From Actinomycetota bacterium (GTDB lineage: Bacteria > Actinomycetota > Acidimicrobiia > Spongiisociales > UBA5794): 53,639 bases of DNA. Positions 9,123 through 35,944 of the stretch are shown one piece after another; position 1 is the stretch's first letter; each line of letters starts with the position of its first letter. The stretch spans positions 1-53,639 of the forward strand of contig JAADIG010000015.1 of NCBI GenBank assembly GCA_013151445.1. Reading direction: 5' to 3'. Below the pieces are notes generated by a model. The model ran no database searches. It saw nothing but the letters and a program-made list of their open reading frames with translations, and was not told where the DNA came from. Position numbers and translations under genes: made by a program.

Positions 9123-9221
9123 ATAAAACTCCCAAAAGCAGATCAACGGCCGCATGGTACCGCTCCGGTGTCGGACCGGACACCCGCCAGCGGCAACCCG
9201 ATACGGGGAGAGGAACACCGG

Positions 9222-9250
9222 TTGACACGGTGAATACGGCTCGGTACGAT
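9222..9250 (+). promoter_or_regulatory. Promoter of tetR-bcrCBAD
   Basis: A perfect -35 box TTGACA (9222-9227), 17 bases of spacing and TACGAT (9245-9250) as a -10 box. The predicted start of transcription falls inside the palindrome at 9254-9275, and the tetR ATG is at 9295. Confidence 0.7.
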
Positions 9251-9253
9251 AAA

Positions 9254-9275
9254 ACCGACCGGTCAGTCGGTCGGT
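9254..9275. promoter_or_regulatory. Putative TetR operator at the bcr promoter
   Basis: Perfect inverted arms ACCGACCG and CGGTCGGT separated by six bases (GTCAGT). The site overlaps the expected transcription start just after the -10 box, so bound repressor would block the promoter. The adjacent tetR gene is the obvious ligand. The arm ACCGACCG recurs in two sites near 24 kb. Confidence 0.7.
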
Positions 9276-9294
9276 ATGCAATCTAGGCGACAGC

Positions 9295-9906
9295 ATGACA
9301 CAGACACTCACCAAATCAGAAGCCACATCCGGACGCATCATCGCCGCGGCACGAACACTGTTTGTTGCTCGTAACTACGCCGATGTCACGACGGACATGA
9401 TTGCCCGCACCGCTGAGGTAACCAAGGGTGGCCTGTATCACCACTTCCCGAGCAAGGAACGGCTGTACCTGTCGATGATGCTCGATGACCTCGAGCGAAA
9501 GCGGCTGCTTTTCGAGAAGGCAACAACCTCACCCGGTAGCTGCCGCGACCGACTCTCACGCCTGACACGGGACTTCCTTGAACTCCCTCGCGAAGATCGC
9601 GAACTCACCCGCCTCGTGAGGCGGGACATCAACACATTCTCGGGTGAGGAACGCGATCTCCTCGTACGCGCCTACCAACGCGCTCTCCCCGAACAGGTCG
9701 AAACGATTATTGATGAAGGAATCAAGAACGGTGAACTAGCCCCCGGAGATGCGAGAATTCTCTCCTGGTCGTTTGTTGCCCTGGTCGAAGTGGTGATCGG
9801 TGAGTACGCCGACCATGTTTACGGAAGTACCCAGGCGCGTCTCGGCCATGTTGTGGATCTCTTCTTCGATGGTGCTGGCACACCACCTACTGGAGGAACA
9901 CTATGA
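9295..9906 (+). CDS. TetR-family regulator, first gene of the bcr operon
   Basis: 203 residues. The N-terminal helix-turn-helix (about residues 14-58, with RIIAAARTLFVARNYADVTT and KGGLYHHFPSKERLYLSM) is typical. The C-terminal ligand domain is of the kind found in regulators that sense acyl-CoA or aromatic CoA esters, though the ligand cannot be read from sequence. The gene follows its own palindromic operator, and its stop overlaps the bcrC ATG (ATGA). It is therefore probably autoregulated, and derepressed when an aromatic CoA thioester binds. Confidence 0.85.
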   Translation: MTQTLTKSEATSGRIIAAARTLFVARNYADVTTDMIARTAEVTKGGLYHHFPSKERLYLSMMLDDLERKRLLFEKATTSPGSCRDRLSRLTRDFLELPREDRELTRLVRRDINTFSGEERDLLVRAYQRALPEQVETIIDEGIKNGELAPGDARILSWSFVALVEVVIGEYADHVYGSTQARLGHVVDLFFDGAGTPPTGGTL

Positions 9907-11078
9907 CTATGACCGCGACGAGAATATTCACCGAATGGCGCGACAAGTCGCTCGACGATGCTCTGCTCGAATGTCGCGACATGGTCGAGGCTCCGGACTT
10001 TGAGACGGCCCGCCGCTGGCGCGAAGCGGGCGGCAAGATCGCTGGCCACTTCCAGGTCTATTTCCCTGAAGAGATCGTTCATGCAGCCGGCATGCTGCCC
10101 TTCAAGGTACGCGGCGCACCGCTGGAGGCAAACCAGGCAGACTCGCATTTCGGTTCGTACCTATGCTCGATTCTGAAGACCTCCCTGGAGTTGGCGCTCA
10201 GCGATGTGGTCGAGATGGATCTCTTCATCTCCCACCCGATCTGTGACGCAGCCCGGAACCTGGCTGCAATCTGGGGACGCAACGTCGACTATCCAAGCCA
10301 GATTCTGTACCTTCCACAGAACCCGAACTCATCGGGAAGTATCGACTACCTCACCCACGAATATGACCGAATACGACGCGTCGTAGAAGAAGTCTCGGGC
10401 CGCACGATCACCGACGAGGACCTCCAGAATTCGATCGCGGTGTTCAACGAAAATCGCCGCCTCATGCGTGAATTGTACGAAATTAAACGTGATACACCTT
10501 GGCTGATTGCAGCCGAGGACGCCTACGCCCTCGTTGCACTGGCTGGCATGGTTCCGCGTGAGGAACACAACGAACTACTCACCGAGCTCCTTCCGAAAAT
10601 CCGCGAGCGCGACAACAAACCCGAGGACCGCATCCGGGTGGTGTTTGAAGGTGGGTTCTGTGAACAGCCACCGTTTGACCTCATCAGAATGCTCGGCCGT
10701 ACCGTCTATGTCGTCGATGACGACTTCCTCATCGGTTTGCGCTGGATAACCGAAGATGTCCCCGTTGACGGAGACCCCTTGGGGAATCTCGCAACCGCCT
10801 ACATCGAACACTCGTCCTACAGCCCCGTCCAGCACGACCTGCGAAAGCCGAAAGAGGAGATGCTGAAGCAACGGATAAGTGACGCGGGGGCGGACGCTGC
10901 CATCCTGGCAGCCGCCAAGATGTGCGAGCCCGGCCTCGAAGAACAAGTTGCCTACACCCACTCCCTCGACGACGCGGAGATCTCGTACTTCCTCAGCGAG
11001 TTCGAAGAGAACATGAGCTCCTTCGATCAGCTCGAACTACAGGTCGCAACGTTCGTCGAGCACCTGCTCTTCGCATGA
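9903..11078 (+). CDS. bcrC: Benzoyl-CoA reductase, BcrC/BzdN-type subunit
   Basis: 391 residues of the HgdB/FldB/BcrBC family. With BcrB it forms the ring-reducing module of class I benzoyl-CoA reductase, which accepts electrons from the ATPase module and reduces benzoyl-CoA to cyclohexa-1,5-diene-1-carbonyl-CoA. Likely cluster cysteines are Cys88 (SYLCSILK), Cys114 (HPICDAARN) and Cys253 (EGGFCEQPP). The N-terminal motif FPEEIVHAAGMLPFKVRGAP is typical of the family. It has a strong GGAGGA site, overlaps tetR by four bases, and is followed by bcrB, bcrA and bcrD in the C-B-A-D order. 2-Hydroxyacyl-CoA dehydratases are related, but the neighbours dch, had and oah point to benzoyl-CoA. Confidence 0.87.
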   Translation: MTMTATRIFTEWRDKSLDDALLECRDMVEAPDFETARRWREAGGKIAGHFQVYFPEEIVHAAGMLPFKVRGAPLEANQADSHFGSYLCSILKTSLELALSDVVEMDLFISHPICDAARNLAAIWGRNVDYPSQILYLPQNPNSSGSIDYLTHEYDRIRRVVEEVSGRTITDEDLQNSIAVFNENRRLMRELYEIKRDTPWLIAAEDAYALVALAGMVPREEHNELLTELLPKIRERDNKPEDRIRVVFEGGFCEQPPFDLIRMLGRTVYVVDDDFLIGLRWITEDVPVDGDPLGNLATAYIEHSSYSPVQHDLRKPKEEMLKQRISDAGADAAILAAAKMCEPGLEEQVAYTHSLDDAEISYFLSEFEENMSSFDQLELQVATFVEHLLFA

Positions 11079-11106
11079 TGTTCCCAACTACTTCACGGAG
11101 GTTGAC

Positions 11107-12411
11107 ATGACGACACTCGATACAACACACGACCTGGTCGGACGTGGAAACCGCGAGGGAGCAGCGATGTTCCGCGAATGGTTTGAAGAGCTCGACAACA
11201 CGGCAAAAACCGGTGGCCAATCCGCCTACGTGTTTGTTATGGGCAGCATTAACGAGATCCTCAAGACGTTTGACCTTCCCGTCGTGTTCCCCGAGATCAA
11301 TTCGCTGCAGACCGCGGTACGCCACGTCGCGCACGAGTACCTCGAGGAAGCCGAGAACTACGGGTATTCACCCGATATCTGCGGTTACGTAAAGGCAGAC
11401 GTCGGCACACAACTGCGCGGTGGCGAACACCCCATGGCGCAGATCCCCAAACCCAGCCTCACCGTGCTCACCAACGCGTGCAACACCTACATCAAATGGG
11501 CCGAGATCTGGGAGCGTATGTACGGGACGCCTACCTTCACGATCGACATTCCCGGGACTCGTCAGGCCGGTAAACAAACCTGGCAGGGTGACCGAGATTT
11601 CGAGGCCGACCGCAAGTACGTTGAGGTCCAGCTCCGCGAGCTCATCACCCTGTGCGAAGAAGTGACCGGCAAGAAGTTCGACATCGACAAGTTCCGCGAA
11701 GTGCTCGGCTACGCCAACACGATGAGTCGGTCCTGGAAACGAATTCTCGAGCTCAACAACGCGAAACCATCCCTGTTCAGCGCCCTCACCGACGGCACCA
11801 TTTTCCTCGGTGTCGCCAACGGTTTCCGTGGCACTGAGGAGGGGGCCCAATACTTCGAACGAGTCGTCGAGGAAATGGAGTACAAGGCCGCCAACGGTAT
11901 TGGCCAGACCATCGACGAGAAGTACCGCTTGTTGTTTGTCGGTGTACCTTGTTACCCAATCTTTCGTCGCTTCAACGAGCTCTTCACCGAGTGGGGCGGG
12001 ACGTTTGTGAACTCCACGTATCTCTGGTTCGCATCGGGCGGAACCAACCGAGGGTTCGAATACGACCTCAAGGATCCGGTTGCGAGTCTCGCCGAGGGTG
12101 TGCTCGTTAGTGTGCGCGACGCCATGGACTCCATGTTCCACCAGAACGAAGTCCTTGAGGACATGGCGAATGACTTCGACGTCGACGGCATCATCTACCA
12201 CCCAATCAAAAGCTGCCGAACCGTGTCGACCGGACTTGCCGACGGCCGCAAGCACATGACGGAGAAACTCGGAATCCCGAGTCTGTTTATCGAATCCGAC
12301 ATGATGGACCGTCGAGTTGTCTCCGAAGCCCAGATGAAGAACAGAATTGATGCCTTCTTCGAAGGCCTGGAATCCCGTAGACAGCAAACGCTGTCCGACG
12401 GAAAAGGATGA
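11107..12411 (+). CDS. bcrB: Benzoyl-CoA reductase, BcrB/BzdO-type subunit
   Basis: 434 residues, the larger HgdB-type subunit of the ring-reducing module. Cysteines in the conserved positions are Cys92 (DICGYVKA), Cys125 (NACNTYIK), Cys282 (GVPCYPIF) and Cys370 (IKSCRTVS). The motif [20 protein letters not shown] near residue 61 corresponds to the substrate-side region of the family. The size matches BcrB/BzdO (about 430-440 residues). Translation starts at ATG 11107 behind GGAGGTTG, 28 bases after bcrC. Confidence 0.87.
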
Positions 12412-12421
12412 GGTGATCTCA

Positions 12422-13243
12422 GTGGCATTTGCAGCCGGAGTCGATGTTGGATCGACCCAAACTAAGGCCGTCATCGTTGACGAAGCCGGGGTCATCGTTG
12501 GACGCGCACTGATCGATACGGGTGCCAACGTTATCAAGGCCGCCGAGGATTCGTTCCTGTTGGCACTCAATGAGCATGAAATCGACGAGGAAGAAGTCGA
12601 GTACGTCGTCGGCACCGGATACGGTCGGTATCGAGTCACGTTCGGCAACACCCAGGTCACCGAGATCAGCTGTCACGGCCGTGGGGCCGTGCATCTGTTT
12701 CCGAATACTCGCACCGTCGTCGATATGGGTGGACAGGACACGAAGGCGATTTCGGTGAGCGCAGAGGGCGAGATTGTCGACTTCTGCATGAATGACAAAT
12801 GCGCCGCAGGTACCGGCCGGTTCCTCGGAGCCGCCGCGGCCGCCCTCGACATCCCCATAGACGACCTCGGGCCCGTCTCTCTCAGAAGCACAAAGCCGAT
12901 CAAGATCAGCACGACCTGTACCGTCTTTGCCGAGTCGGAGGTGCTGGCCTGGATCGGGAAGGGCAAGAAGATTGAGGACATCCTCTGGGGAGTTCACAAG
13001 TCAATCGCATCGCGTTCCGCGGGTCTGATGCGCAGAGTAGGCATCAACGACGAAATCACGTTCACCGGTGGTGTGTCCCGCAACCTTGGCATGGTGCGGG
13101 CCCTCGAAGAGCGACTCGAGAAACCACTGAACATCAGCGATGATTGCCACTACATGGGGGCACTTGGTGCGGCGCTGTTTGCGCTCGACCATGTACTGAC
13201 CGGGCGCACGCCGGTGAGTACGGTTTCGGGGGTGACACTGTGA
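12422..13243 (+). CDS. bcrA: Benzoyl-CoA reductase ATPase subunit, BcrA/BzdP-type
   Basis: 273 residues of the BadF/HgdC ASKHA-ATPase family. It hydrolyses ATP to push electrons from ferredoxin to the BcrCB module. Visible motifs are the phosphate loop [12 protein letters not shown] (residues 6-17), [22 protein letters not shown] (Cys127) and [11 protein letters not shown] (Cys166); these two cysteines hold a [4Fe-4S] cluster shared with the partner subunit. GTG 12422 was chosen for the GAGGTGATC site eight bases upstream; GTG 12413 is in frame as an alternative. It is short, like BzdP of the Azoarcus type, not like the roughly 440-residue Thauera BcrA. Confidence 0.87.
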
Positions 13244-14064
13244 TTATCACCGCAGGTCTGGATATCGGATCTACCTACACCAAGGCACTTCTGCAGAACG
13301 AGGACCATGAGATCCTCGCCAAGGCGATGCTACCTACCGGGTTTCGGCTTCAGGAAATAGCCCGAACAATCTACAACCAGGTACTCGAAGCTGCCGGGCT
13401 GAGCGAGAACGACATCTCCTATGTGATCGCTACCGGCCCGGGTCGGCACCAAGTCGACTTTAAGGATCTTCAGGTCACGGACCTGACGGCTAGTGCACGT
13501 GGAGCCAACCTCCTGTTCCCAGGTACTCGCACGATCCTTGACATCGGCGGTCAAACCATGAAGGCGAGTCGCGTTGACGAGGCGGCGAAGGTCATATCGT
13601 TTCGGCTCAACGACAAGTGCGCAGCGGGCACCGGGGCATTCCTGGAAAAGACCGCCCGTTACATGGGGTACGACATCCAGGAGATCAGCGCCCTCATGGT
13701 CACGTCGAAACAACCAGTTCCGATATCCGGTGTGTGTGCGGTGTTTGCCGAGTCGGAGGTTATTAACCACCTCTCGCTGGGTACCGCCCCCGCCGACATC
13801 ATGCAGGGTGCGATTGAATCGTTGACCGGCCGATCGGTGCAGCTCATGAAGCGGGTACGGGCAGAACCCGAGTTCACTCTCATCGGAGGCATCCTGCGTT
13901 TCGAAACGATGGGGAAAACCGTTAGCGACCTCCTCGATGCTGAAGTGAATGTCCCCGACGGGGACATGGTGCAGTTCGTACCGGCACTCGGCTGTGCGAT
14001 ACTCGGACGCCGTCGACTCGAAAAACTCGGATCTGACGGCCGTATGGCAGGAGCAGGCGTGTGA
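13240..14064 (+). CDS. bcrD: Benzoyl-CoA reductase ATPase subunit, BcrD/BzdQ-type
   Basis: 274 residues, the second ASKHA ATPase subunit. It carries [12 protein letters not shown] (residues 6-17), [22 protein letters not shown] (Cys127) and [12 protein letters not shown] (Cys166), the same cluster positions as in the A subunit. The GTG start overlaps the bcrA stop (GTGA). A pair of different ATPase subunits separates class I benzoyl-CoA reductases from 2-hydroxyacyl-CoA dehydratases, whose activator is a homodimer. The downstream 90-residue gene overlaps its stop. Confidence 0.87.
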
Positions 14065-14333
14065 GCGAGGACACGGGTTCAGAAGCAATCTATTGCTCGG
14101 CCGGGGTGCAGATCCTGCAGGCGCCCGCGCTTGAGTCGGCTGGATGGCAACGCCGCACGGTGACCGACCCGGCACGGATCGACGAACTTGACGAGCTCTA
14201 CACGGGACTGGGTTTCGAAACCACCACCACCATGTTGGACCCGTCGAGTTTCGGCGAGGCTTGCACAAGCTGTGCGGTCACGGCATGTACGACGTACATC
14301 GCCCTCTTTACCCGTAAACAGGCAACCGGCTGA
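14061..14333 (+). CDS. Small Cys-containing protein coupled to bcrD
   Basis: 90 residues, GTG start overlapping the bcrD stop by four bases. It contains an acidic helix (RIDELDELYTGLGFET) and, near residues 73-80, the cysteine cluster ACTSCAVTACTTY; another Cys lies near residue 12. The spacing is too sparse for a classic ferredoxin (no CxxCxxCxxxCP). It could bind zinc or a cluster, or assist assembly or electron delivery for the reductase. I do not recognise a named family. A strong hairpin follows, so it is the last gene of the bcr operon. Confidence 0.65.
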   Translation: MSEDTGSEAIYCSAGVQILQAPALESAGWQRRTVTDPARIDELDELYTGLGFETTTTMLDPSSFGEACTSCAVTACTTYIALFTRKQATG

Positions 14334-14340
14334 CACCACC

Positions 14341-14382
14341 CAACTCCTGAGCCTCAAGATCTATGACGTCGAGGCTCAGTTG
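14341..14382. terminator. Terminator hairpin between bcr operon and dch
   Basis: A perfect 9-base stem CTGAGCCTC (14347-14355) / GAGGCTCAG (14371-14379), extended by CAACT / AGTTG with a bulge. It lies in the 62-base gap between convergent stops and can serve both strands. Confidence 0.65.
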
Positions 14383-14395
14383 TTGGTTCACTGTG

Positions 14396-15160
14396 TTAGT
14401 TGTTGGTCCACTGCGGGGGTCGTTTGTCGATGAAGGCCGCAATTCCCTCAACACCGTCGTGTGACACCAACAGCTCCTCGCGGTAGATTCCCTCGGCGGC
14501 GGCCAGCCTCCGGTCGAAGTCCTCGAGACGCCCGTCGCGCACGGCCTTGGTCGCCATCCGCAACGAGAACGCAGACCGGGGCACAAAATGCTCGTTGATG
14601 AAACCATCAATCACAGCATCCAAACTGCCACCCTCGGCGATCACATTGACGATGCCGATGCGGCGAGCCTGCTTTGCGGTGAAGCTGCGCCCGGTCAGGA
14701 TGACATCCTCGGCGGCTCTCCCGGCCAGCAGCGCCGTCGCCGCGGGTGGAAGAACACCGAGTTGGATCTCGGGTGTGCCCAGGGTCGCCCCCTCGTCGGC
14801 AATCACGATTCCGCAGGCGAGCATCAGTTCGAGGCCACCTCCAAGACATGCACCCTGGACGCCAACAAGCGTCGGATATGGGAATCCAACAAGTGACCGA
14901 ATGACCCCTCCCAGGGCATCTAGCATCTCGGGAGCCTTGTCCGGCAGGTGCTCCTCCACACTTGCACCAAACGAGAAGTGTCGGCCAGCGCCACGGAGCA
15001 CAAGCACCCTGGCATCACTTGCAACTCGAGCCGCCTCGATGGCGGGTGCAATCTGTGCGCACAGGGCAATGTCGATCACATTGCCCGGTGGTTTGTCGAT
15101 CGTGATCGTGTGCACTGCTCCATCGCCAGACACGTCATGGCGGACCCACTCGTCGCTCAC
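14396..15160 (-). CDS. dch: Cyclohexa-1,5-dienecarbonyl-CoA hydratase (Dch)
   Basis: 254 residues of the crotonase fold. In the benzoyl-CoA pathway Dch adds water to the dienoyl-CoA made by the reductase, giving 6-hydroxycyclohex-1-ene-1-carbonyl-CoA. The stretch GRHFSFGASVEEHLPDK near residues 58-74 is characteristic of dienoyl-CoA hydratases, and GACLGGGLELMLAC near residue 104 holds the oxyanion-hole region. GTG start, overlapping the oah stop by four bases. The position beside oah and had makes this assignment much more likely than a general enoyl-CoA hydratase. Confidence 0.86.
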   Translation of the reverse strand: MSDEWVRHDVSGDGAVHTITIDKPPGNVIDIALCAQIAPAIEAARVASDARVLVLRGAGRHFSFGASVEEHLPDKAPEMLDALGGVIRSLVGFPYPTLVGVQGACLGGGLELMLACGIVIADEGATLGTPEIQLGVLPPAATALLAGRAAEDVILTGRSFTAKQARRIGIVNVIAEGGSLDAVIDGFINEHFVPRSAFSLRMATKAVRDGRLEDFDRRLAAAEGIYREELLVSHDGVEGIAAFIDKRPPQWTNN

Positions 15161-16257
15161 GAGTCTGTTTTGTATTGTGGTGAGACTGCTTCGATCAACT
15201 CGTCACCCCAGGTCTCACCGGCCGCAAGCCGACGCCGCAGATCAACAAAGTCGACTTCCCGTCCGACCTCGCGTGAACCACGGTGGAAGGCCTGGAAACC
15301 CGCCTTTGCCTCCGTCATCATGTTGAGCGATAACCACGCACGGTTGGATTCCTTGTTCTGGTCCCAGTGTTCGAGTTTCTTCTTACGCACCGATTCGGTG
15401 GTCTTGAGTGTGCAATCGGGCATGGTGTAGAGAATCTTGGTGAGCATTGCGTCCACGCCGGCATCAAGCATTGAGAAGTCGACCGTACCGGCCTTGAGCT
15501 GCACCTTTGCGGCCTGCAGATCCTCGCCCTCCTTCGGCTTTCCGTGGATGATCTTTCCCCACTTGTCCAGGTACCGGTCAGTAACAACGAGCGGGTTGGG
15601 AACAAACTCTCCGTCAACCTTAAGCACTGGGAAGATATCGTTGACAAGACCGAGACGGAGCGCTTCATGAGCGCTCCAGGGATCACACAACACACAACTC
15701 GCCATTGCATCACCCCACCCCACATACAGGTGGAGGAAATCCGTCGATCCACCATCGGGTGCCGATCCATGTTTCGGCCCGGCCTGGCCGAACCTTGCAA
15801 GATCGGATGCAAGCGTGAAGTCACACGCCATGCCAATCTCCTGTCCCCCACCGATGCGCATGCCATTCACCCGGTTGATGACGGGCTTGTCACACATCAG
15901 GATCGCCGACACCATGTCGTTGAACAACCGCATGTACTGCCGGTATTCGCCGGGACGGCCCGCGTAATACTCGGAGTACTCCTCAGTGTTCCCGCCGGTA
16001 CAGAATGCTCGGTCCCCAACCCCGGTGAAAACCACCGCAACGGCGGCGCGATCTACCGATGCTCGTCGGAACGCGAGGATCACCTCTTTCACCGACTCGG
16101 TGGTGTACGAGTTGAGCTGTTGAGGATTGTTGAGGGTGATCCACACCGCGTGAAGCCCGCCAACCGCGGCACCGGAATTGTCGAGTACCGGTCGAGTCTC
16201 ATAGAGAATCTCGTTGAACTCGCGCTCCGGCACAAGATCGTGGTCAATGAACTCCAT
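15157..16257 (-). CDS. oah: 6-Oxocyclohex-1-ene-1-carbonyl-CoA hydrolase (Oah/BamA)
   Basis: 366 residues, longer than ordinary crotonases and the standard size for the ring-opening hydrolase of the benzoyl-CoA pathway. It adds two waters to the cyclic oxo-enoyl-CoA to give 3-hydroxypimelyl-CoA. Recognisable stretches include ITLNNPQQLNSYTTESVKEV, FCTGGNTEEYSEYYAGRPGE, GPKHGSAPDGGSTDFLHLYV and NKESNRAWLSLNMMTEAKAG; these match regions long used as the bamA marker for anaerobic aromatic degradation. An AAGGTGA site precedes the ATG. It lies between had and dch in one operon. Confidence 0.93.
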   Translation of the reverse strand: MEFIDHDLVPEREFNEILYETRPVLDNSGAAVGGLHAVWITLNNPQQLNSYTTESVKEVILAFRRASVDRAAVAVVFTGVGDRAFCTGGNTEEYSEYYAGRPGEYRQYMRLFNDMVSAILMCDKPVINRVNGMRIGGGQEIGMACDFTLASDLARFGQAGPKHGSAPDGGSTDFLHLYVGWGDAMASCVLCDPWSAHEALRLGLVNDIFPVLKVDGEFVPNPLVVTDRYLDKWGKIIHGKPKEGEDLQAAKVQLKAGTVDFSMLDAGVDAMLTKILYTMPDCTLKTTESVRKKKLEHWDQNKESNRAWLSLNMMTEAKAGFQAFHRGSREVGREVDFVDLRRRLAAGETWGDELIEAVSPQYKTDS

Positions 16258-16287
16258 GGTGTTTCACCTTTCGTAGGGAGGAATTGG

Positions 16288-17355: not shown

Positions 17356-17453
17356 GGCTCAACTTTCATCGCCGCGGTCCATCTCCGACACCCCACGTCG
17401 CCGCACGGTGGACCAATCGAACGTGCTCAAACCTCTGGAGGAACAGTCGAACC

Positions 17454-28271: not shown

Positions 28272-29404
28272 GCACAGCACAACTCATCCAGGGAAACGAG
28301 GCTTGTGTGAAGGGGGCATTGGCGGCCGGGTGTAGCTTCTACGGCGGCTACCCGATCACGCCCTCGTCCGAAATCGCCGAGCAGATGGTTCGCCTCCTCC
28401 CAAAACGCGGCGGTGTCTTCATCCAGATGGAGGACGAGATCGCATCTCTCGCGTCGGTAATCGGGGCGAGCCTCGCTGGCTCCAAGGCAATGACAGCCAC
28501 GAGCGGTCCCGGCTTTTCACTCATGCAGGAACACATCGGATACGCCACGATGACCGAGGTCCCCTGTGTGATCGTGAACGTCATGCGTGGGGGACCAAGC
28601 ACCGGCCTGCCCACCTCTCCGTCACAGGGGGACGTCATGCAGGCCCGCTGGGGCACACACGGCGATCACCCTGCGATCGTCCTCGCTCCGGCCTCCGTTG
28701 GAGAGGTGTTTGACCTCACTGTGAAGGCGTTCAATCTCTCGGAACGGTTCCGCACGCCGGTGATTCTGCTTTACGATGAGATCATTGGACACACCAGGGA
28801 AAGCGTCGTACTCCCGGATTCGGTCGACATCACCAATCGGACCCATCCGGACGTCGCACCCGAAGATTTCTGGCCAAAGGAAGCTCCCCCGGCCGGTGTG
28901 CCACCGATGCCGGGCTTTGGCGATGGGTACCGCTTCCATGTCACCGGCTTGACCCACGACCATCGCGGGTTCCCGACAAATGACGGAGACATCGCGGAAG
29001 CTCTCATCACCCGACTTCACCAGAAGATCGAGACAAACCTCGACGAAATCTCGGAAGTGGAGACCTACATGCTCGACGACGCCGAGATCGCGATCTTCGC
29101 CTATGGCATCGTGGGTCGATCGGCCCGTGAAGCGGTCATACGAGCACGCGAAGCCGGCATCAAGGCAGGCTTGATCCGGCCGCTCACCATCTGGCCGTTC
29201 CCAACCGCCGAGGTCGCCGCGGCGGCGCAACAGGTCGATACCATGATTGTGGCCGAGATGAACCTGGGGCAACTTATTGGCGAGGTCGAACGTGCCGCGG
29301 CGGGTGCCACTGAGATCGTCTCCTACCTACGAGTCGACGGCGAACCCATCACACCGACGGTACTTCTTGACCTCATGATGCCGGGAACGGGAGCAAGCTC
29401 ATGA
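28268..29404 (+). CDS. korA: 2-Oxoglutarate (2-oxoacid):ferredoxin oxidoreductase alpha subunit
   Basis: 378 residues. It begins straight with the pyrimidine-binding domain (LIQGNEACVKGALAAGCSFY, GYPITPSSEIAEQM) and has no fused gamma domain, as in KorA of the four-subunit type. MRGGPSTGLPTSPSQGD and GTHGDHP are the substrate-side motifs typical of KorA/VorB. Together with KorB it decarboxylates a 2-oxoacid with CoA and gives reduced ferredoxin; in Thauera such an enzyme supplies the benzoyl-CoA reductase. ATG overlaps the stop of the fusion gene (ATGA). Confidence 0.87.
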   Translation: MSTAQLIQGNEACVKGALAAGCSFYGGYPITPSSEIAEQMVRLLPKRGGVFIQMEDEIASLASVIGASLAGSKAMTATSGPGFSLMQEHIGYATMTEVPCVIVNVMRGGPSTGLPTSPSQGDVMQARWGTHGDHPAIVLAPASVGEVFDLTVKAFNLSERFRTPVILLYDEIIGHTRESVVLPDSVDITNRTHPDVAPEDFWPKEAPPAGVPPMPGFGDGYRFHVTGLTHDHRGFPTNDGDIAEALITRLHQKIETNLDEISEVETYMLDDAEIAIFAYGIVGRSAREAVIRAREAGIKAGLIRPLTIWPFPTAEVAAAAQQVDTMIVAEMNLGQLIGEVERAAAGATEIVSYLRVDGEPITPTVLLDLMMPGTGASS

Positions 29405-30213
29405 CAGATGTGAAGACCTATCTCCGAGAGTGGGCAATGCCCCACGTGCTGTGTCCAGGATGTGCGCACGGGATCGTGCTGCGATCATTCCTAGAGTCGG
29501 TCGACCAACTCCAACTTGACCGGAACAAGGTCGCCATGGTGGCAGGCATCGGTTGCAGCAGCAGGCTTGTCGGGTACGTCGATTTCTGCACCCTGCATGG
29601 CACCCATGGGCGGGCACCAGCGTTTGCGACCGGCCTCAAGCTTGCCCGCCCCGAGCTGAATGTCGTGGTCGTGACCGGAGACGGCGACGGTCTCGCCATT
29701 GGTGGCAACCATCTCATTCACGCCGCACGTCGAAACATCGACATGACCGTTCTGATGCTCAACAACTCGATCTACGGTATGACGGGTGGCCAGGCCGCAC
29801 CGACGACACCCGAAGGGTCGGTCGCTTCGACAACTCCTCAGGGGAATACTGAGCCGAACTTCGATGCCTGCAAACTCCTCATCGGAGCAGGAGCATCGCA
29901 TGTCGTTCGGGTGCTTGCCGCAAACCCCCTTGAAATGACAAAGGTCATGGCGGACGCAATGACCCACCCGGGATTCTCCTTCATCGAGATCATCAGCGAC
30001 TGCCCCGAGTATTTCGGCCGGTACAACAAGGTTGGAGGAGGTGCAGAGATGCTGTCGTGGATGGCGGTGCGCGATGAGGGGATCACAATCCCACTAGCCA
30101 ACAAGAGTTTCGTGAAGCACGTTCCCTCGTCAGCCCCACCTTCGGGCATGAAAACCGGAGTTCTCCACAGAGAAGTCCGGCCGGTGTACGCGGGTGTCAG
30201 AGGGGAGCAGTGA
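29401..30213 (+). CDS. korB: 2-Oxoglutarate (2-oxoacid):ferredoxin oxidoreductase beta subunit
   Basis: 270 residues. This is the TPP-binding beta subunit: CPGCAHGIVLRSF near the N-terminus, GIGCSSRLVGYVDF, then VVTGDGDGLAIGGNHLIHA and LNNSIYGMTGGQAAPTT, the magnesium/TPP loop. The Cys in LCPGCAHG and GIGCSS are in place for the single [4Fe-4S] cluster of this subunit. ATG overlaps the korA stop, and the korC start overlaps its own stop (GTGA). The C-terminal end (LHREVRPVYAGVRGEQ) is unremarkable. Confidence 0.88.
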   Translation: MTDVKTYLREWAMPHVLCPGCAHGIVLRSFLESVDQLQLDRNKVAMVAGIGCSSRLVGYVDFCTLHGTHGRAPAFATGLKLARPELNVVVVTGDGDGLAIGGNHLIHAARRNIDMTVLMLNNSIYGMTGGQAAPTTPEGSVASTTPQGNTEPNFDACKLLIGAGASHVVRVLAANPLEMTKVMADAMTHPGFSFIEIISDCPEYFGRYNKVGGGAEMLSWMAVRDEGITIPLANKSFVKHVPSSAPPSGMKTGVLHREVRPVYAGVRGEQ

Positions 30214-30752
30214 CCATGGGGCGCAACGAGATCCGTATTGCGGGCGCCGGCGGTCAGGGCGTGGTCACGGCCGGGCGAATCCTTGCCGAGGCAGCGATCC
30301 TGTCCGGCAGTCACGCTACTCATTCCCAGGTCTACGGACCCCAGTCTCGCGGTGGTGCGAGCCGGTCCGACATTGTGATTGCAACCGAGCCCATCGCCTT
30401 CCCACTTGCGGACAATATTGACCTCCTGTTTGTGTTGAGCTCGGACGCCTTTGCAAAATACGAACCAGAGTTGGGACCCGACGGCACCCTCATAGTCGAC
30501 ACCCGGTGTGCACCCGAATCTCTCAATGGCGACACACCCCAGTACGCCGTTGTCGACACAGCACGAGCGGTCTCCGGGGGACAGCTCGTGACCGGCGTTG
30601 TCGCGCTCGGCGTGCTCCAGGCCCATACACAGTGTGTTGATGCGGAGGCGTTGCGTCAGGCGGTCGCAGCGCGGGTACCTGTCCAGCACACAAAGATGAA
30701 TCTCGAAGCCCTCGACGCCGGGATGGGTTTGGTCGGCGGCGAGTCATCATGA
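30210..30752 (+). CDS. korC: 2-Oxoglutarate (2-oxoacid):ferredoxin oxidoreductase gamma subunit
   Basis: 180 residues of the POR_gamma fold, with IAGAGGQGVVTAGRILAEAA (CoA-side loop) and VYGPQSRGGASRSDIVI as the family signature. It completes a KorABC complex whose delta subunit appears to be the C-terminal part of the IorB-KorD fusion. GTG 30210 overlaps korB by four bases; ATG 30216 is an in-frame alternative. The stop overlaps the start of the second tetR gene. Confidence 0.87.
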   Translation: MTMGRNEIRIAGAGGQGVVTAGRILAEAAILSGSHATHSQVYGPQSRGGASRSDIVIATEPIAFPLADNIDLLFVLSSDAFAKYEPELGPDGTLIVDTRCAPESLNGDTPQYAVVDTARAVSGGQLVTGVVALGVLQAHTQCVDAEALRQAVAARVPVQHTKMNLEALDAGMGLVGGESS

Positions 30753-31363
30753 CTGCGGTCGCCTCCACACGGGCACGGATTCGCACCGAGGCAGCCTCGC
30801 TTTTTAGTACCCAGGGATTCAACGGGACCAGCATGGCCGAACTCGCCAACGCGGTCGGTATCACCAAGTCGAGCCTCTACCACCACTTCCCATCGAAACA
30901 AGCTTTGCTCTCGGAGATCATCGAACAAACCGTGGGACGTGTAACACCCCTGGTTCAGGAGGTCGCCGACATGGACCTCCCGGTGCGCGAACGTCTCGCA
31001 CGGGCGATCACTCTCCATACGATCGAGGCCATTCGCGACCGGGACGCCATTGCCTGTTTCATCGAGGAAGGCCGCTACCTATCCCCCGACTTTATGGCGT
31101 TGCATGTCGGCAACCGGGACCGCTACGAGCAGGTGTTTCAGAAGATCTTTACCGCGGGTATCGAGTCCGGGGAGTTCATGCGCCAAGATGTCGGCATTGC
31201 GGCAAGGGCAATCCTCGGCATGTGTAACTCGGTGGTTCGCTGGTACCGCCCGGACGGTCACCAGAGTCCCGAAGAGATCGCATCTCAGTTCGCCCATCTC
31301 GCTGTCCACGGTGCCACCGCAGCTCGAGACATGGCGTCCTCCGATCAGGGGTACGTGCGATGA
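30749..31363 (+). CDS. TetR-family regulator inside the kor-CoA-transferase operon
   Basis: 204 residues. The helix-turn-helix is at about residues 8-55 (RIRTEAASLFSTQGFNGTSM, VGITKSSLYHHFPSKQALLS), followed by a ligand-binding domain resembling KstR2/FadR-type TetR proteins. It has four-base overlaps on both sides (korC and the CoA-transferase gene), so it is made as part of the operon and not from its own promoter. It could recognise the paired ACCGACCG-type sites at 24 kb, giving feedback on its own operon, or it could share them with the other TetR. Confidence 0.83.
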   Translation: MTAVASTRARIRTEAASLFSTQGFNGTSMAELANAVGITKSSLYHHFPSKQALLSEIIEQTVGRVTPLVQEVADMDLPVRERLARAITLHTIEAIRDRDAIACFIEEGRYLSPDFMALHVGNRDRYEQVFQKIFTAGIESGEFMRQDVGIAARAILGMCNSVVRWYRPDGHQSPEEIASQFAHLAVHGATAARDMASSDQGYVR

Positions 31364-32571
31364 GCGGTGCCCTTCAAGGTGTAACCGTGCTTGACCTCTC
31401 CCAGGGTGCGGCCGGGCCAACATGTGCGATGTATCTCGGAGACATGGACGCCGATGTCCTCAAGGTCGAACCCCCCGACGGGGAGTGGGGTCGTCGATTG
31501 GGCCCACCCTTTGTGGAGGGAGTGGCGGCGGCGTTTCTTGGCATGAACCGAAACAAGCGGAGCATCGTCGTCGACCTCAAGGAACGCGGAGGTTCCGAGG
31601 TTATTTTGCGGCTCGCAGAACACGCCGACGTTGCCCTGGAAAGCTTCCGACCGGGTGTCGCCGACCGTCTTGGCATTGGCTATGAGGCCATGCGTGCACG
31701 CAACCCAAAACTGATCTACGCGGCGATCTCGGCATTCGGTCAGAGTGGACCATGGCGGGACCGCCCCGGTGTTGATGGGATCGCCCAGGCCATGGGTGGC
31801 ATCATGAGTGTCACCGGCACTCCAGACGGCCCTCCGGTGAAGGTCGGTGTGCCGGCCGCCGACATGGCCGGTGGTGTGTACGCATCCCAGGCAATCCTCG
31901 CCGCCCTCTTTGCCCGAGAGCGCACGGGACAGGGGCAGCGGATCGACGTCTCGCTTCTCGACTCGCTCCTCGCGTTCCAGGTCGTGCCGCTCTCGATGTT
32001 CCTTGCGAGCGGAACCTCTCCTCAACGTCTCGGAAGTGCCGCCCCCTACGCCGCCCCGAACGAAGCCTTTACGACTCGCGACGGTCATGTCATGGTTGCG
32101 GCGTACACCGCAAAACGGTGGCCGGCACTATGTGGCGCCGTCGGACGTCCGGAACTCGCCATCGATAGCCGTTTTGATACCAACGACAAACGGGTTCGCG
32201 CTAGAGACGCTCTGCGCGAAGTCCTGGAACCGCTCTTCCAGACAAAAACGACAGCCGAGTGGATCGCCTGCCTGGACGAGGTGGACGTCCTATGCGGTCC
32301 GCTGTTGAGCTATCCCGAACTTGTCGCTGAGGAACATGTCGCAACCGGTGATGCCCTCGTCACGGTCGCACACCCGAGTTTCGGAGAGATCCGGGCACCA
32401 GCACTCCCGGGACGGTTCTCTCACACAGCCGGTGACTTCTCGGGGCCGCCACCACCGATCGCCGGTGAGCATACCGAAGCGATCCTCAGCGAGAACGGCT
32501 TCGACGAGGACGAAATCGCGCTGCTGGTTAGTACCGGTGTCGTTTCCACCGCGGTCGAACCACAGCCATGA
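31360..32571 (+). CDS. CaiB/BaiF-family (class III) CoA-transferase
   Basis: 403 residues. Family features are the N-terminal [49 protein letters not shown], the [20 protein letters not shown] stretch holding the probable nucleophilic Asp, and the [15 protein letters not shown] region. These enzymes move CoA between carboxylic acids. No aromatic acid-CoA ligase is present in the window, so this enzyme might activate the aromatic acid or a dicarboxylic acid intermediate. That is inference. ATGA overlap with the tetR gene. Confidence 0.83.
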
Positions 32572-32584
32572 CAAGGAGAAAACA

Positions 32585-33397
32585 ATGACCGACAGTCCCC
32601 AACCGAGTCCGGAGGAACAGCCAGTCCTGTATGAACGGGTCGGTGCGGTGGGAGTCCTGACACTCAACCGTCCGCAGGCGCTCAACTCGATGACCGTACC
32701 GATGCTGGAAAAGATCGGTGAGTTGCTCGACGAGATCGAGAACGACCCGGCGACCCGGGTCCTTGTCCTAACCGGATCTGGGGAAAAGGCATTCTGTGTC
32801 GGGGCCGACTTGAAGAGTCGCGGCAAGGAATTCGAGCCCGGTCTCATCCACGATCCTCTCGGTCTTCTCGTCCGCAGTGTTTTCGGTCGCCTTGAGAACC
32901 TTCACGTCCCTGTGATCATCGCAATCCGTGGTTACGCCCTCGGTGGAGGTCTCGAATTCGCCCTCGCCGGTGATATCAGAGTCGCCGCGCAAGGAGCGAG
33001 ACTCGGGTTCCCGGAGGCGAAGGTTGGGAGCCTTCCCGGGGCGGGTGGAACCCAACGCGCCACACGCCTCATCGGACCCGGATTCACCAAGGAGCTCATG
33101 TTCACCGCCGATCACATCAGCGCCGCCCGGGCTCTGGAGATGGGATTGGTGAACCGGGTCGTACCCGACGACGATCTGATGAAAGAAACAATGGCGTTGG
33201 CGGACCGAATCGCCACACGGGCCCCCCTCTCGCACGACCGAGTCAAGGTCCTGGTGAATCGCGCCACCGAAACCGACCTCGAGACCGGACTCGAACTCGA
33301 GTCAACCAGCCATGCGGTCCTTCGCGTGAGCAAGGACCGCACCGAGGGTATCCAGGCATTCATCGAGAAACGCCCACCAGAATTCCAAGGTCGATAA
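32585..33397 (+). CDS. Enoyl-CoA hydratase/isomerase family protein
   Basis: 270 residues of the crotonase fold. [17 protein letters not shown] and [20 protein letters not shown] form the oxyanion hole, and [20 protein letters not shown] contains the second catalytic Glu region. The start ATG has AAGGAGAAAAC upstream; the open frame further upstream belongs to antisense of nothing real and is ignored. It probably hydrates a 2-enoyl-CoA in beta-oxidation of the ring-fission product. It differs from dch, lacking the SFGASVEEHLPD motif. Confidence 0.85.
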
Positions 33398-33416
33398 ACA
33401 CCAGCGGAGGTAGAAC

Positions 33417-34163
33417 GTGAACGTGAAAGACAGAGTCGCCATTGTCACCGGCTCCGGCCAGGGAATCGGCGAAGGTATCGCTCGGGTCCTAGCGGGCGCC
33501 GGCGCCAGGGTCGTGGTAAATGATCTGGTCCCCGAAAGGGTTGAGGAGGTCGTCGCCGACTTCAAGGCCCGTGGTTACGATGCGACCGGCCTGGCTGCCA
33601 ACGTCGCTGTTGCGGTCGAGGCCGAGAGCCTCGTAGCAAAGGCTGTCGACACCTATGGGCGGGTGGATATTCTCGTCAACAACGTTGGCATGGCGCGAGA
33701 CGGTTGGCTCGCCAAGATGAGCGAAGAAGATTGGGACACGGTGCTCACCGTGAACCTGAAGTCCCAGTTTCTCATGTGCCGCGCCGTCGCGAAACACATG
33801 ATGGACCAGAACTACGGTCGTATCGTCAATATCTCATCCAGGGCGTGGCTCGGTGGTCCTGGCCAGGCAAACTATGCCGCTTCCAAGGGTGCAGTCATCA
33901 GCCTCACCAGGACACTGGCACTCGAGATGGCTCGATATGGTGTCACGGCGAACGCGATCGCCCCAGCGCTCGTTGACACTCCGCTCTTTCGCGGACTTAA
34001 GGAAGAGGTGCAGGAAAGGTTGATCAAGACCATCCCGGCGCGTCGAATCGGAACGCCCGAAGACATCGGTAACGCCGCGCTGTTCCTGGCATCCGACGAG
34101 GCCTCGTACGTCACCGGCCAGACACTGTACGTGTGTGGTGGCAGAAGCCTGGGGGCGGGTTGA
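33417..34163 (+). CDS. Short-chain dehydrogenase/reductase (3-oxoacyl reductase-like)
   Basis: 248 residues, a classical SDR. Cofactor motif TGSGQGIGEGIA (residues 11-22), NNVG (88-91) and the catalytic Ser140/141, Tyr153 and Lys157 (NISSRAWLGGPGQANYAASK). It resembles FabG-type 3-oxoacyl reductases and may oxidise a 3-hydroxyacyl-CoA from the preceding hydratase. GTG start behind GGAGGTAGAAC, 19 bases after the hydratase gene. Confidence 0.85.
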   Translation: MNVKDRVAIVTGSGQGIGEGIARVLAGAGARVVVNDLVPERVEEVVADFKARGYDATGLAANVAVAVEAESLVAKAVDTYGRVDILVNNVGMARDGWLAKMSEEDWDTVLTVNLKSQFLMCRAVAKHMMDQNYGRIVNISSRAWLGGPGQANYAASKGAVISLTRTLALEMARYGVTANAIAPALVDTPLFRGLKEEVQERLIKTIPARRIGTPEDIGNAALFLASDEASYVTGQTLYVCGGRSLGAG

Positions 34164-34179
34164 AAGGGGTACACACACC

Positions 34180-35454
34180 ATGGGTATGACACACGCCGAG
34201 AAGCTCCTGGCCTCCGCAGCTCACAAACCGAGCGTCACCGCCGGTGAGTTTGTTGTCGCCGATATCGACCTCGCGCTCCTCCACGACATCTTTGCGGCCC
34301 AGGTCTTTGATCTGCTGCAAGAAGTCGGAGTTCCCAACGTCTTCGACCCGGAAAAGACCGTCGTCGTTGTCGACCATCTTGTGCCGGCGCCATCGGCCGC
34401 GGCCGCAGCGGTTCATCAGAAGATTCGCAGCCACGTCGCCCGGCTCGGTATCAACGCCTTCTACGACGCTGGTGAGGGAATCTGTCACCAGCTCCTGCCC
34501 GAGCAGGGCCACGTCCGCCCCGGCATGCTGATTGTCGGCACCGATTCGCACACCACAACTCACGGAGCCCTCGGCGCCGGCGGCACGGGTATTGGTACAT
34601 CCGACATGGTGTACGCACTCGCTACCGGACGCCTCTGGTTCCGGGTTCCCGAGACGATTCGTTTCGAGATGACCGGCGATCTCCTGCCCGGGGTCTCCTG
34701 GAAAGACGTCATCCTTCACCTCGCGGGTCGGTTCGGGTCCGATGCCGCCCAGTATCGGGCAATGGAGTTTGGGGGTTCCGCGGTCAAGAATGCCAACATG
34801 TCGAGCCGTCTCACCGTGGCGAATATGGCGGTCGAGATGGGAGCCAAATTCGGTCTCTTTGCCGCCGACGAGGTCACCGATGCATACCTCAGGGATCATG
34901 GGGGTGTGGGCAGCGAGCCCTATGGCCCGGACCCTGATGCCGAGTACGAAGCCGTGCACGAGATTTCGCTCTCGGACCTCCCGCCACAGGTTGCGTTGCC
35001 CAACGAGGTAGACCGAGTCAGTTCAATCGAGGACGTGGCAGGCCTCACCATCAACCAGGCGTTCATCGGCTCATGCACAAACGGTCGTATCGAGGATCTC
35101 CAGGCGGCGGCAGCAGTTCTCGCTGGCAAGCATATCGCCCCGGGCGTCCGCCTCCTCGTCGTCCCCGCCTCACGCCAGATACTGCAAGAGGCACTGGAAA
35201 CCGGGGTGATCGCGACACTCGTCGACGCAGGGGCATCGGTACTGACACCCGGATGCGGACCCTGTTTCGGTGGGCATGGGGGGCTGCTCGGCCCGGGTGA
35301 GCGGTGCATCGGCACCCACAACCGGAACTTTATTGGGAGAATGGGGAGCGCCGATGCTGAGATCTATCTCGGCTCGCCGGCGACCGTAGCGGCTTCAGCT
35401 CTGCGCGGTCGCCTCGCCGATCCAAGAGACTTGGAGGTTAACAATGACGAGTGA
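34180..35454 (+). CDS. Aconitase/LeuC-like hydro-lyase large subunit (second copy)
   Basis: 424 residues, the shorter archaeal-type LeuC/homoaconitase large subunit. Cluster cysteines are Cys299 ([13 protein letters not shown]), Cys359 and Cys362 (GCGPCFGGHGG). VGTDSHTTTHGALGAGGTGI is the substrate region. It differs strongly in length and sequence from the leuC at 2.6 kb, so it is unlikely to be a redundant leucine enzyme. Relatives isomerise homocitrate, isopropylmalate, citrate or dimethylmalate-type acids. It follows the SDR by 16 bases; a second ATG lies six bases in. It works with the next gene. Confidence 0.8.
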   Translation: MGMTHAEKLLASAAHKPSVTAGEFVVADIDLALLHDIFAAQVFDLLQEVGVPNVFDPEKTVVVVDHLVPAPSAAAAAVHQKIRSHVARLGINAFYDAGEGICHQLLPEQGHVRPGMLIVGTDSHTTTHGALGAGGTGIGTSDMVYALATGRLWFRVPETIRFEMTGDLLPGVSWKDVILHLAGRFGSDAAQYRAMEFGGSAVKNANMSSRLTVANMAVEMGAKFGLFAADEVTDAYLRDHGGVGSEPYGPDPDAEYEAVHEISLSDLPPQVALPNEVDRVSSIEDVAGLTINQAFIGSCTNGRIEDLQAAAAVLAGKHIAPGVRLLVVPASRQILQEALETGVIATLVDAGASVLTPGCGPCFGGHGGLLGPGERCIGTHNRNFIGRMGSADAEIYLGSPATVAASALRGRLADPRDLEVNNDE

Positions 35455-35944
35455 CGTTCTTGCCGGCAAAGTCTGGCGGTTTGACCATGACATCAGTACC
35501 GACCTGTTGTCCCCCGGGGCGTATGCCGTCGACTCGGTCGAGGTTCGCAAACAGCATGTCCTGGAATCTGTGAACCCGTCCTTCGTGTCCGACGTGCAGC
35601 CTGGTGACGTCCTCGTCGTCGGTCGGAATTTTGGTTGTGGTTCGTCGCGTGAGACCGCCGCGGAGAACTTGGTCGCCCTCGGGGTTGCGTGCATCGTTGC
35701 TGAGTCGCTCGCACGAATATTCATGCGCAACGCCGTCGCGCTGGGACTCCCCGTCGTCGTATGTCCCGGTGTACATGAGAGTTTTGATGATGGCGAGCGC
35801 ATAGAAATCGACCTTGCATCGGGCCGAATAGTCAACGTCGACACCGGAGCGGAACTCCAGGGTGACTCGCTTCCACCGGAGATGCGTGAGATTCTCGCCT
35901 CCGGCGGAATACTTGCCGTGCTCAGAGCCCAGGCCGGACGCTAA
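35444..35944 (+). CDS. Aconitase/LeuD-like hydro-lyase small subunit (second copy)
   Basis: 166 residues, the archaeal-type small subunit (about 165 residues). The conserved GRNFGCGSSRETAAENLVALG motif is present. The specificity loop after STDLLSPGA reads YAVD (residues 27-30). Isopropylmalate isomerases and homoaconitases of this type usually show YLxx variants (for example YLRT in homoaconitase), so the substrate may differ from both. It overlaps the large-subunit gene by 11 bases and ends the operon. A small hairpin follows at 35957. Confidence 0.8.
   Translation: MTSDVLAGKVWRFDHDISTDLLSPGAYAVDSVEVRKQHVLESVNPSFVSDVQPGDVLVVGRNFGCGSSRETAAENLVALGVACIVAESLARIFMRNAVALGLPVVVCPGVHESFDDGERIEIDLASGRIVNVDTGAELQGDSLPPEMREILASGGILAVLRAQAGR

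Follow-up and report, generated by a model that had tools for sequence, protein, structure and literature searches.

Gene content of the island

A 53,639-nucleotide contig of the Actinomycetota draft genome GCA_013151445.1 (JAADIG010000015.1, positions 1 to 53,639; "the window" refers to this whole stretch) carries at positions 9295-36672 a gene island predicted to encode oxygen-independent degradation of benzoyl-CoA by way of a class I aryl-CoA reductase. The island runs from a TetR gene to a PAS-LuxR gene and is organized in three blocks. The first, on the plus strand (9903-14064), consists of the four reductase genes. The second, on the minus strand (24026-14396), has the transcription order ThlA (a thiolase partner), ThlB (a thiolase), PrpF, HcrC, HcrA, HcrB, Had, Oah, and Dch. 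The third, on the plus strand (24192-35944), encodes a LeuA-like enzyme, IOR alpha, IOR beta with a fused ferredoxin domain, KorA, KorB, KorC, a TetR regulator, CaiB, an enoyl-CoA hydratase (ECH), an SDR, and LeuC-like and LeuD-like proteins. A previous interpretation made from the DNA alone (the sequence-only reading) had listed the ATPase pair and the ring-reducing pair of the reductase, three ring-opening enzymes, and three 4-hydroxybenzoyl-CoA reductase subunits, and all of these are present as intact open reading frames (ORFs). The enzymes that it named can be kept, and the second half of the island, from PrpF to LeuD2, which it left uninterpreted, has to be added to them.

The best E-values of these ten named genes range from 2.5e-29 for HcrC (a Pfam match), with 1.3e-59 the weakest of the other nine, to 1.9e-258 for HcrA, so that chance matches are excluded. 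A separate public record, BMS3Bbin02 (L025), is colinear with window positions 1620-13532 at a DNA identity of 69 to 83%, and the gene set is conserved in three related genomes (G013, G059, and G009) and rearranged in a fourth (G069). Because of this colinear record and the recurrence of the same gene set in the four relatives, the island is not an assembly artifact.

A class I reductase of the MBR type

Each reductase subunit has as its best match in the PDB a chain of a 3-methylbenzoyl-CoA reductase (MBR, Mbd). The MbdN-like subunit (BcrC; 9903..11078, plus strand) scores 523 bits with MbdN (9g87_B; 57.8% identity), versus 138 bits with HadC and 90 bits with BzdN, and the MbdO-like active-site subunit (BcrB; 11107..12411, plus strand) scores 539 bits with MbdO (9g87_A), versus 125 bits with HadB and 88 bits with BzdO. 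The two ATPase/activase subunits are encoded directly downstream on the same strand: an MbdQ-like protein (12347..13243, with homology from ~12428) that matches MbdQ with 405 bits and 69.9% identity, a Had activase with 217 bits, and MbdP with 158 bits, and an MbdP-like protein (13144..14064, with homology from ~13243) that matches MbdP with 315 bits and 58.3% identity and MbdQ with 192 bits. The aligned segments are 54 to 70% identical to the four solved Mbd subunits and 26 to 28% identical to BzdN, BzdO, and HadC.

The active-site cysteine triad is kept, with C92, C125, and C370 of BcrB aligning with the [4Fe-4S] cysteines C95, C128, and C380 of BzdO; these BzdO ligands are named, and class I enzymes are split into BCR, MBR, and BZD types, in the accessible text of PMC11971306. 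His131 of BzdO corresponds to Tyr128 in the BcrB-like subunit, and a Phe occupies the aligned place in MbdO. The BcrC-like subunit keeps C88, C114, and C341, three of the six double-cubane cysteines of BzdN, and MbdN is without the same other three. The Bcr and Bzd equivalog cut-offs of NCBIfam are missed by all four subunits (score/cut-off in bits: TIGR02263, 251/421; TIGR02260, 212/487; TIGR02259, 214/578; TIGR02261, 140/313; TIGR03190, 88/454; TIGR03192, 181/380) because these subunits, as judged from model scores only for the Bcr (Thauera) type and from solved chains for the Bzd and Mbd types, are MBR-type and neither Bcr- nor Bzd-type. The Mbd-best matches, the identities, and the cysteine pattern together identify the predicted enzyme as an MBR-type class I aryl-CoA reductase. 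What the sequence-only reading had called a class I benzoyl-CoA reductase does belong to the class I, ATP-dependent family, and its type is MBR rather than Bcr of Thauera or Bzd of Azoarcus.

The island shares its reaction sequence and class I chemistry with the Thauera bcrCBAD and Azoarcus bzdNOPQ systems, and it departs from them in the low identity to BzdN and BzdO, the missed equivalog cut-offs, and the three missing BzdN cysteines. The mbd cluster of Azoarcus CIB is closer: its four subunits are the nearest solved relatives, the cluster-ligand pattern of the BcrC-like subunit is the same, and a TetR regulator is present in both. The mbd operon also carries the upper pathway down to hydroxymethylpimelyl-CoA, according to the portion of PMC4424350 available. 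Here, in contrast, the host belongs to the Acidimicrobiia, Hcr genes are linked, and no CoA ligase occurs among the window genes scanned. The attached LeuA-IOR-KOR-LeuCD-PrpF module may be a further difference. The TetR proteins also differ. The one directly upstream of the reductase operon (9295..9906, plus strand; all NCBIfam TetR models below cut-off) is generic, with DarR as its best PDB match at 52 bits; MbdR (4uds) matches with 32 bits, which leaves the identification as an MbdR ortholog unsupported. A TetR gene sits upstream of bcrC in acidimicrobial loci.

Ring-opening enzymes and 4-hydroxybenzoyl-CoA reductase

Three minus-strand genes could carry the product of the reductase to ring opening. 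Oah, the 6-oxocyclohex-1-ene-1-carbonyl-CoA hydrolase that opens the ring (15157..16257), exceeds the cut-off of TIGR03200 (567 versus 464 bits), and Had (16288..17355) exceeds that of TIGR03201 (468 versus 339 bits). The third is a probable cyclohexa-1,5-diene-1-carbonyl-CoA hydratase, Dch (14396..15160), for which TIGR03189 is the top model at 211 bits (cut-off, 292.5); it is linked to Oah and Had in relatives.

The same strand encodes a probable, divergent 4-hydroxybenzoyl-CoA reductase (HCR), divergent and probable because HcrA and HcrB remain below the NCBIfam equivalog cut-offs. Both proteins are best matched by 4-hydroxybenzoyl-CoA reductase models and by PDB entry 1rm6, which we take to be the enzyme of Thauera aromatica. 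HcrA, the molybdopterin subunit (18434..20878, likely start at ~20809), scores 860 bits with TIGR03194 (cut-off, 994.55) and 621 bits with 1rm6_A. HcrB, the subunit with FAD and an extra [4Fe-4S] cluster (17454..18437), scores 245 bits with TIGR03195 (cut-off, 404.55) and has 1rm6_B as its best PDB match (168 bits). HcrC, the subunit with two [2Fe-2S] clusters (20806..21282), is recognized by the Pfam domains Fer2 and Fer2_2. Like 1rm6, the predicted enzyme has three subunits and a Cys-rich insert in the beta subunit, all five cysteines of which align with the insert of 1rm6_B; this insert is presumably the [4Fe-4S] cluster site. It differs from 1rm6 in the shortfall of its alpha and beta subunits against the equivalog cut-offs, in its transcription order C-A-B, and in adjoining PrpF.

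The linked PrpF-to-LeuD2 module

A conserved module makes up about half of the island and comprises PrpF, thiolase, a LeuA-like synthase, two 2-oxoacid:ferredoxin oxidoreductases, a CoA-transferase, ECH, SDR, and a LeuCD-like hydratase. On the minus strand are a PrpF-family double-bond isomerase (21282..22466; PF04303, 347 bits; OMA tautomerase, 279 bits, and PrpF, 240 bits, both below cut-off), a thiolase of the BbsB/lipid-transfer type (ThlB, 22439..23581; best NCBIfam thiolase model at 372 bits, none above cut-off among the matches listed), and its Zn-ribbon/OB-fold partner of the BbsA/ChsH2 type (ThlA, 23574..24026; domains OB_ChsH2_C and zf-ChsH2, and a BbsA model at 81 bits against a cut-off of 250).

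The plus-strand part begins with a LeuA/homocitrate-synthase-like acetyl-CoA condensing enzyme (24192..25589), which has an HMGL-like domain, reaches no equivalog cut-off, and has a homocitrate synthase as its best PDB match (114 bits). It is followed by the first oxidoreductase, IOR alpha (25586..27400; TIGR03336, 664 bits against a cut-off of 651) and IOR beta fused to a C-terminal 2x[4Fe-4S] ferredoxin domain (27267..28271, homology from ~27414; POR and Fer4 domains). The second oxidoreductase is of the 2-oxoglutarate type (KOR) and comprises KorA, the alpha subunit (28184..29404, likely start at ~28268; PRK08659, 574 bits, above the cut-off of 411), KorB (29401..30213; PRK09628, 266 bits, below 364), and KorC, the gamma subunit (30210..30752; PRK08537, 131 bits, below 235). 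This link of a KOR to the reductase resembles the electron supply of Thauera. Next come the second TetR-family regulator (30749..31363; all NCBIfam TetR models below cut-off, position kept in relatives), a CaiB-type CoA-transferase (31360..32571; succinate-glutarate type, 284 bits, and mesaconate type, 273 bits, both below cut-off), ECH (32585..33397 in an ORF open from 32321; PRK07657, 252 bits, below 363), and an SDR resembling 3-hydroxyacyl-CoA dehydrogenases (33417..34163; FabG and acetoacetyl-CoA reductase models, with only SDR subfamily cut-offs passed). The module ends with the large subunit of a LeuC/HacA-family hydratase (34135..35454; TIGR01343, 546 bits, above 386) and the small subunit of LeuD/DmdB type (35444..35944; TIGR02087, 158 bits, above 109). 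The true leuC is a separate gene at 2534-3991 (TIGR00170, 777 bits). A PAS-LuxR regulator (35998..36672, plus strand; PAS and LuxR-type helix-turn-helix models) closes the conserved island and is syntenic in G013, G059, G009, and G069.

Conservation and co-occurrence of the island

Matches to BcrC (E-value up to 0.001) were found in 23 of 99 related genomes, the source genome (G000) included. Fifteen of them have 76 to 100% identity (one in two fragments), six have 55 to 57%, and two have 25 to 26%. We counted as carriers the 21 genomes with at least 55% BcrC identity, leaving aside the two at 25 to 26%. Gene order in the island is kept across families, with variations: in G013 and G059 the Hcr genes lie beyond TetR, and G029 has no Hcr between Had and PrpF.

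The module follows the reductase closely. Among the matches listed, a LeuA ortholog (65 to 100% identity) is present in 20 of 21 carriers and in none of the 78 other genomes (Fisher P = 5e-20, uncorrected for shared ancestry), and the next matches listed have at most 135 bits and 37% identity. Among these matches, G052 alone of the carriers has no LeuA ortholog; its bcr contig stops at 16.9 kb. Outside the Acidimicrobiia, LeuA-like and IOR genes come after bcr in Gemmatimonadota loci L083 and L088 and lie near bcr in a Chloroflexi locus (L087), and in another actinobacterium (L091) the genes KorB-KorC-CaiB-ECH-SDR-ThlB-PrpF are ahead of bcr.

Among the matches listed, 11 of 15 close carriers and 0 of the 78 noncarriers have Oah above its cut-off. 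Of the remaining close carriers, G036 has a 103-residue piece at a contig end (123 bits), and G022, G032, and G052 give only generic crotonase scores. Diverged loci L149 to L156 (G007, G021, G077, and G017) retain Hcr genes together with LeuA-IOR-PrpF-thiolase genes. Two further loci, L136 and L137, also have a diverged MBR-type reductase (55 to 57%) in genomes with no Oah above the cut-off.

Host and spread of the reductase

The source genome is a 3.07-Mb draft, 98% complete, in which no 16S match was found. It belongs to a lineage of the Acidimicrobiia (Actinomycetota), with BMS3Bbin02, the nearest named record at 91%, as a genus-mate. NCBI leaves BMS3Bbin02 unclassified, and we take its order to be UBA5794. 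The string "BMS3Bbin" was not found in PMC12008989.

A BcrC tree was built by a quick method from 98 rows (the window, 94 locus rows, and 3 PDB segments); L001 (the window itself), the fragments L015 and L024, the HAD-like L022 and L023 (25 to 26% identical), and the duplicates L025, L026, L028, L035, L036, and L038 (of G002, G029, G014, G005, G040, and G022, respectively) were left out. The window falls within a clade of 26 rows (support, 100) from Acidimicrobiia, other Actinomycetota, or unnamed relatives plus one row labeled Gemmatimonadetes (L042). PDB MbdN is inside the wider BcrC family on a long branch, and its placement is unsure. The sequence-only reading had suspected an actinobacterial host and had asked whether the contig might instead be placed in the Proteobacteria; the clade and the nearest named record agree with the former. 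The actinobacterial clade and the colinear BMS3Bbin02 record also rule out proteobacterial contamination or a chimera. As to labels, the BcrC of L042 (a metagenome-assembled genome [MAG]) nests in the Acidimicrobiia clade and L036, labeled Armatimonadetes, duplicates G040; transfer, misbinning, or mislabeling could account for this.

Among 396 Actinomycetota drawn evenly, 81 match BcrC, and only 5, the source genome included, reach 55% identity; the remaining 76 have at most 34%, apart from one 63-residue fragment at 37%. The suspicion that such a pathway would be unusual in an actinobacterium was thus correct for the phylum as a whole, and it does not apply to this lineage, where 21 of 99 relatives (the source genome included) carry the reductase. 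Members of the BcrC family occur in many phyla: in a scan of named genomes (best 80 of 205 loci), loci with 64 to 74% identity include Planctomycetota, Gemmatimonadota, Acidobacteriota, Chloroflexi, Gammaproteobacteria, Bdellovibrionales, and Marinimicrobia. In some nonactinobacterial loci (L042, L043, L051, L053, L082, L083, and L095), extra BcrB-like (24 to 30%) and activase-like (31 to 42%) genes lie near the MBR-type set.

Class I bcr genes are described from Dehalococcoidia, Anaerolineae, Deltaproteobacteria, Aminicenantes, TA06, and archaeal MAGs in the accessible text of PMC6472368. For the Acidimicrobiia, the open PMC literature, as far as its text was available, names bcr genes only in PMC12008989; PMC12206884 contains both terms in unrelated passages. 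The available part of PMC12008989 states in a single sentence that some members of order UBA5794 from marine sediment have bbsA, bcrBC, and boxBC, and in another it counts box genes, there called bcrB and bcrC, among possible acquisitions by transfer; that part gives no island, MBR assignment, Oah, Had, Hcr, or lower module.

Aerobic benzoyl-CoA genes in the carriers

Elsewhere in the source genome are a benzoate-CoA ligase family protein (613 bits; cut-off, 375) and the Box proteins BoxB (843 bits; cut-off, 499) and BoxC (884 bits; cut-off, 712), encoded ~2.4 kb from a cytochrome oxidase subunit I gene. Since ligase, BoxB, BoxC, and cytochrome oxidases are all present, the host is probably an oxygen-flexible degrader of benzoyl-CoA that would switch routes with oxygen. 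BoxB above the cut-off occurs in 14 of 21 carriers versus 5 of 78 other genomes. A heme-copper oxidase is encoded by 19 of the 21 carriers, 14 of which have both it and BoxB; in a search of 22 genomes (the 21 plus G108), COX1 was absent from G052, G059, and G108.

In the sister genome G001, the benzoate-CoA ligase, BoxC, and BoxB lie within the island itself (L120:6564-17605 and L121:3843-8609), which also encodes a UbiD protein close to the phenylphosphate carboxylase beta subunit (417 of 469 bits). Another protein of this island we take to be phenylphosphate-synthase-like; the matching model is titled hypothetical protein. This locus appears to combine aerobic and anaerobic benzoyl-CoA routes with a phenol-carboxylation-like pair.

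Flanking features

A repeat scan of positions 6000-38500 found only one partial palindrome inside the LeuA gene (24988-25033) and short tandem repeats (6208-6517; periods of 15 nt and 33/66 nt) just past the 3' end of an aminopeptidase-like ORF (6603-9341). Downstream of the island, the minus strand carries cytochrome c maturation-type genes at 40592-47012 (CcmA-like, a weak CcmB match, CcmF/NrfE-like, and DsbE-like). Two adjacent plus-strand ORFs at 50208-51812 and 51809-53335 (534 and 508 amino acids) have no match in NCBIfam (E-value up to 1e-30) or Pfam (E-value up to 1e-5) and could be real genes of new type or chance ORFs of high-GC DNA.

Proposed pathway and alternatives

We consider it probable (about 0.75) that the island encodes the central oxygen-independent benzoyl-CoA degradation pathway of an acidimicrobial actinobacterium, centered on an MBR-type class I reductase. 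We have high confidence in the overall pathway. The gene content, protein families, cluster-ligand residues, synteny, and co-occurrence are established here, whereas the substrate (benzoyl-CoA rather than methylbenzoyl-CoA) and the flux are inferred. In the proposed scheme, a CoA ligase encoded elsewhere in the genome would activate benzoate or 4-hydroxybenzoate, and HcrABC would take off the 4-hydroxyl group. The MbdQP-like ATPase pair would then drive electrons from ferredoxin into the MbdNO-like catalytic pair, yielding a cyclic dienoyl-CoA, and Dch, Had, and Oah would hydrate it, oxidize it, and open the ring to give 3-hydroxypimelyl-CoA, steps proposed because of the enzyme families present. 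SDR and thiolase may cut 3-hydroxypimelyl-CoA to glutaryl-CoA and acetyl-CoA. With oxygen, the same benzoyl-CoA could enter the Box route.

The module would add reduced ferredoxin and lower-pathway enzymes dedicated to this route. Its LeuA-like, LeuCD-like, and PrpF proteins might, as a conjecture, carry out condensation, hydration, and a double-bond shift on a tricarboxylate or branched dicarboxylate. KOR and IOR, fed by the condensing enzyme and the hydratase, could regenerate low-potential ferredoxin for the benzoyl-CoA reductase and HCR; from the linkage and what is known of these families, we hold such a ferredoxin loop to be possible, with the odds somewhat against it.

Several observations weigh against the proposed pathway. 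Dch, HcrA, HcrB, and a number of lower-pathway proteins score less than their curated cut-offs require. Among the matches listed, none of the six relatives with diverged reductases (55 to 57%) has Oah above the cut-off, and they do have the LeuA ortholog. Only 4 of 80 named-genome loci (L026, L083, L087, and L088; best 80 of 205) have a LeuA-like match, many of the contigs being short. The CxxCxxCxxxC motif, searched in six frames of the window, occurs only in the IOR alpha C terminus and the IOR beta ferredoxin domain, so that this motif reveals no stand-alone ferredoxin there. No acyl-CoA dehydrogenase is found among the island genes scanned, and the glutaryl-CoA step must therefore be encoded elsewhere. 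No NarG match above the cut-off was found in the genome, which speaks against nitrate as an acceptor via NarG. Finally, the genome has three matches to PF00285, the ordinary citrate synthase family; the LeuA-like enzyme therefore need not make citrate, and the idea that it is the cell's only citrate synthase is weakened.

Kinship to MBR invites the alternative that the island, as in Azoarcus CIB, serves 3-methylbenzoyl-CoA or another substituted aryl-CoA and that PrpF and the LeuCD-like and LeuA-like enzymes process methyl-branched dicarboxylates after ring opening. PrpF and LeuD/DmdB-type enzymes do act on methylated dicarboxylates in known pathways, and the TetR gene upstream has a counterpart in the mbd cluster, MbdR (PMC4424350, available text). 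However, that TetR protein is far from MbdR, HcrABC and the benzoate-CoA ligase family protein point to unsubstituted benzoyl-CoA, and the module genes also occur in the relatives that have no Oah above the cut-off among the matches listed, so that the module is not tied to one ring-opening product. The accessible text of PMC4424350 also reports that Mbd enzymes convert benzoyl-CoA in vitro, which we count for benzoyl-CoA as the substrate, and we regard a methylbenzoate island as quite improbable. That the reductase is a 2-hydroxyacyl-CoA dehydratase, an outcome that the sequence-only reading had named as refuting it, or a double-cubane reductase merely resembling benzoyl-CoA reductase is scarcely credible: the proteins share a superfamily and models of both groups do match, but by far the best solved matches are MbdNOPQ (523 and 539 bits for the catalytic pair versus 138 and 125 bits for the dehydratase), and the linkage with Dch, Oah, Had, and Hcr is kept in relatives. 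There are also two distinct activases, whereas 2-hydroxyacyl-CoA dehydratases have a single one. We therefore reject a dehydratase identity.

It is also conceivable that the benzoyl-CoA pathway is real and that PrpF to LeuD2 form a separate catabolic or anabolic pathway merely traveling with bcr. The module has no assigned substrate, the island has two TetR regulators and divergent operons, and thiolase, SDR, and ECH could serve the Box route too. The restriction of the LeuA ortholog to carriers (20 of 21, versus none of 78 among the matches listed) and the occurrence of LeuA and IOR genes next to bcr or close to it in loci of Gemmatimonadota and Chloroflexi argue for a functional tie instead, and Box genes are found in only 14 of 21 carriers. 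We consider an independent module unlikely.

Implications

The biochemistry of ATP-dependent anaerobic dearomatization comes mainly from Proteobacteria. As a tentative generalization, in which all parts would have to hold together, the MBR family may be an aryl-CoA reductase that is widespread among uncultured Actinomycetota, Chloroflexota, Gemmatimonadota, Planctomycetota, and Acidobacteriota rather than chiefly a methylbenzoate enzyme of denitrifying Proteobacteria. In Acidimicrobiia it might have a previously undescribed obligate partner module (PrpF, thiolase, LeuA-like, IOR, KOR, CaiB, ECH, SDR, and LeuCD-like), which would serve either as a new lower pathway or as a loop of acetyl-CoA oxidation dedicated to reducing ferredoxin. 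The cells would be mostly facultative and would run the Box route alongside it from one benzoyl-CoA pool.

A full and conserved MBR-type pathway in an acidimicrobial lineage would widen the range of possible benzoyl-CoA dearomatizers. The carriers with both BoxB and an oxidase raise a question that can be tested, namely, how oxygen-equipped cells make use of an oxygen-sensitive reductase. The LeuA-IOR-KOR-LeuCD-PrpF module offers a concrete genetic handle on the source of low-potential electrons for class I reductases.

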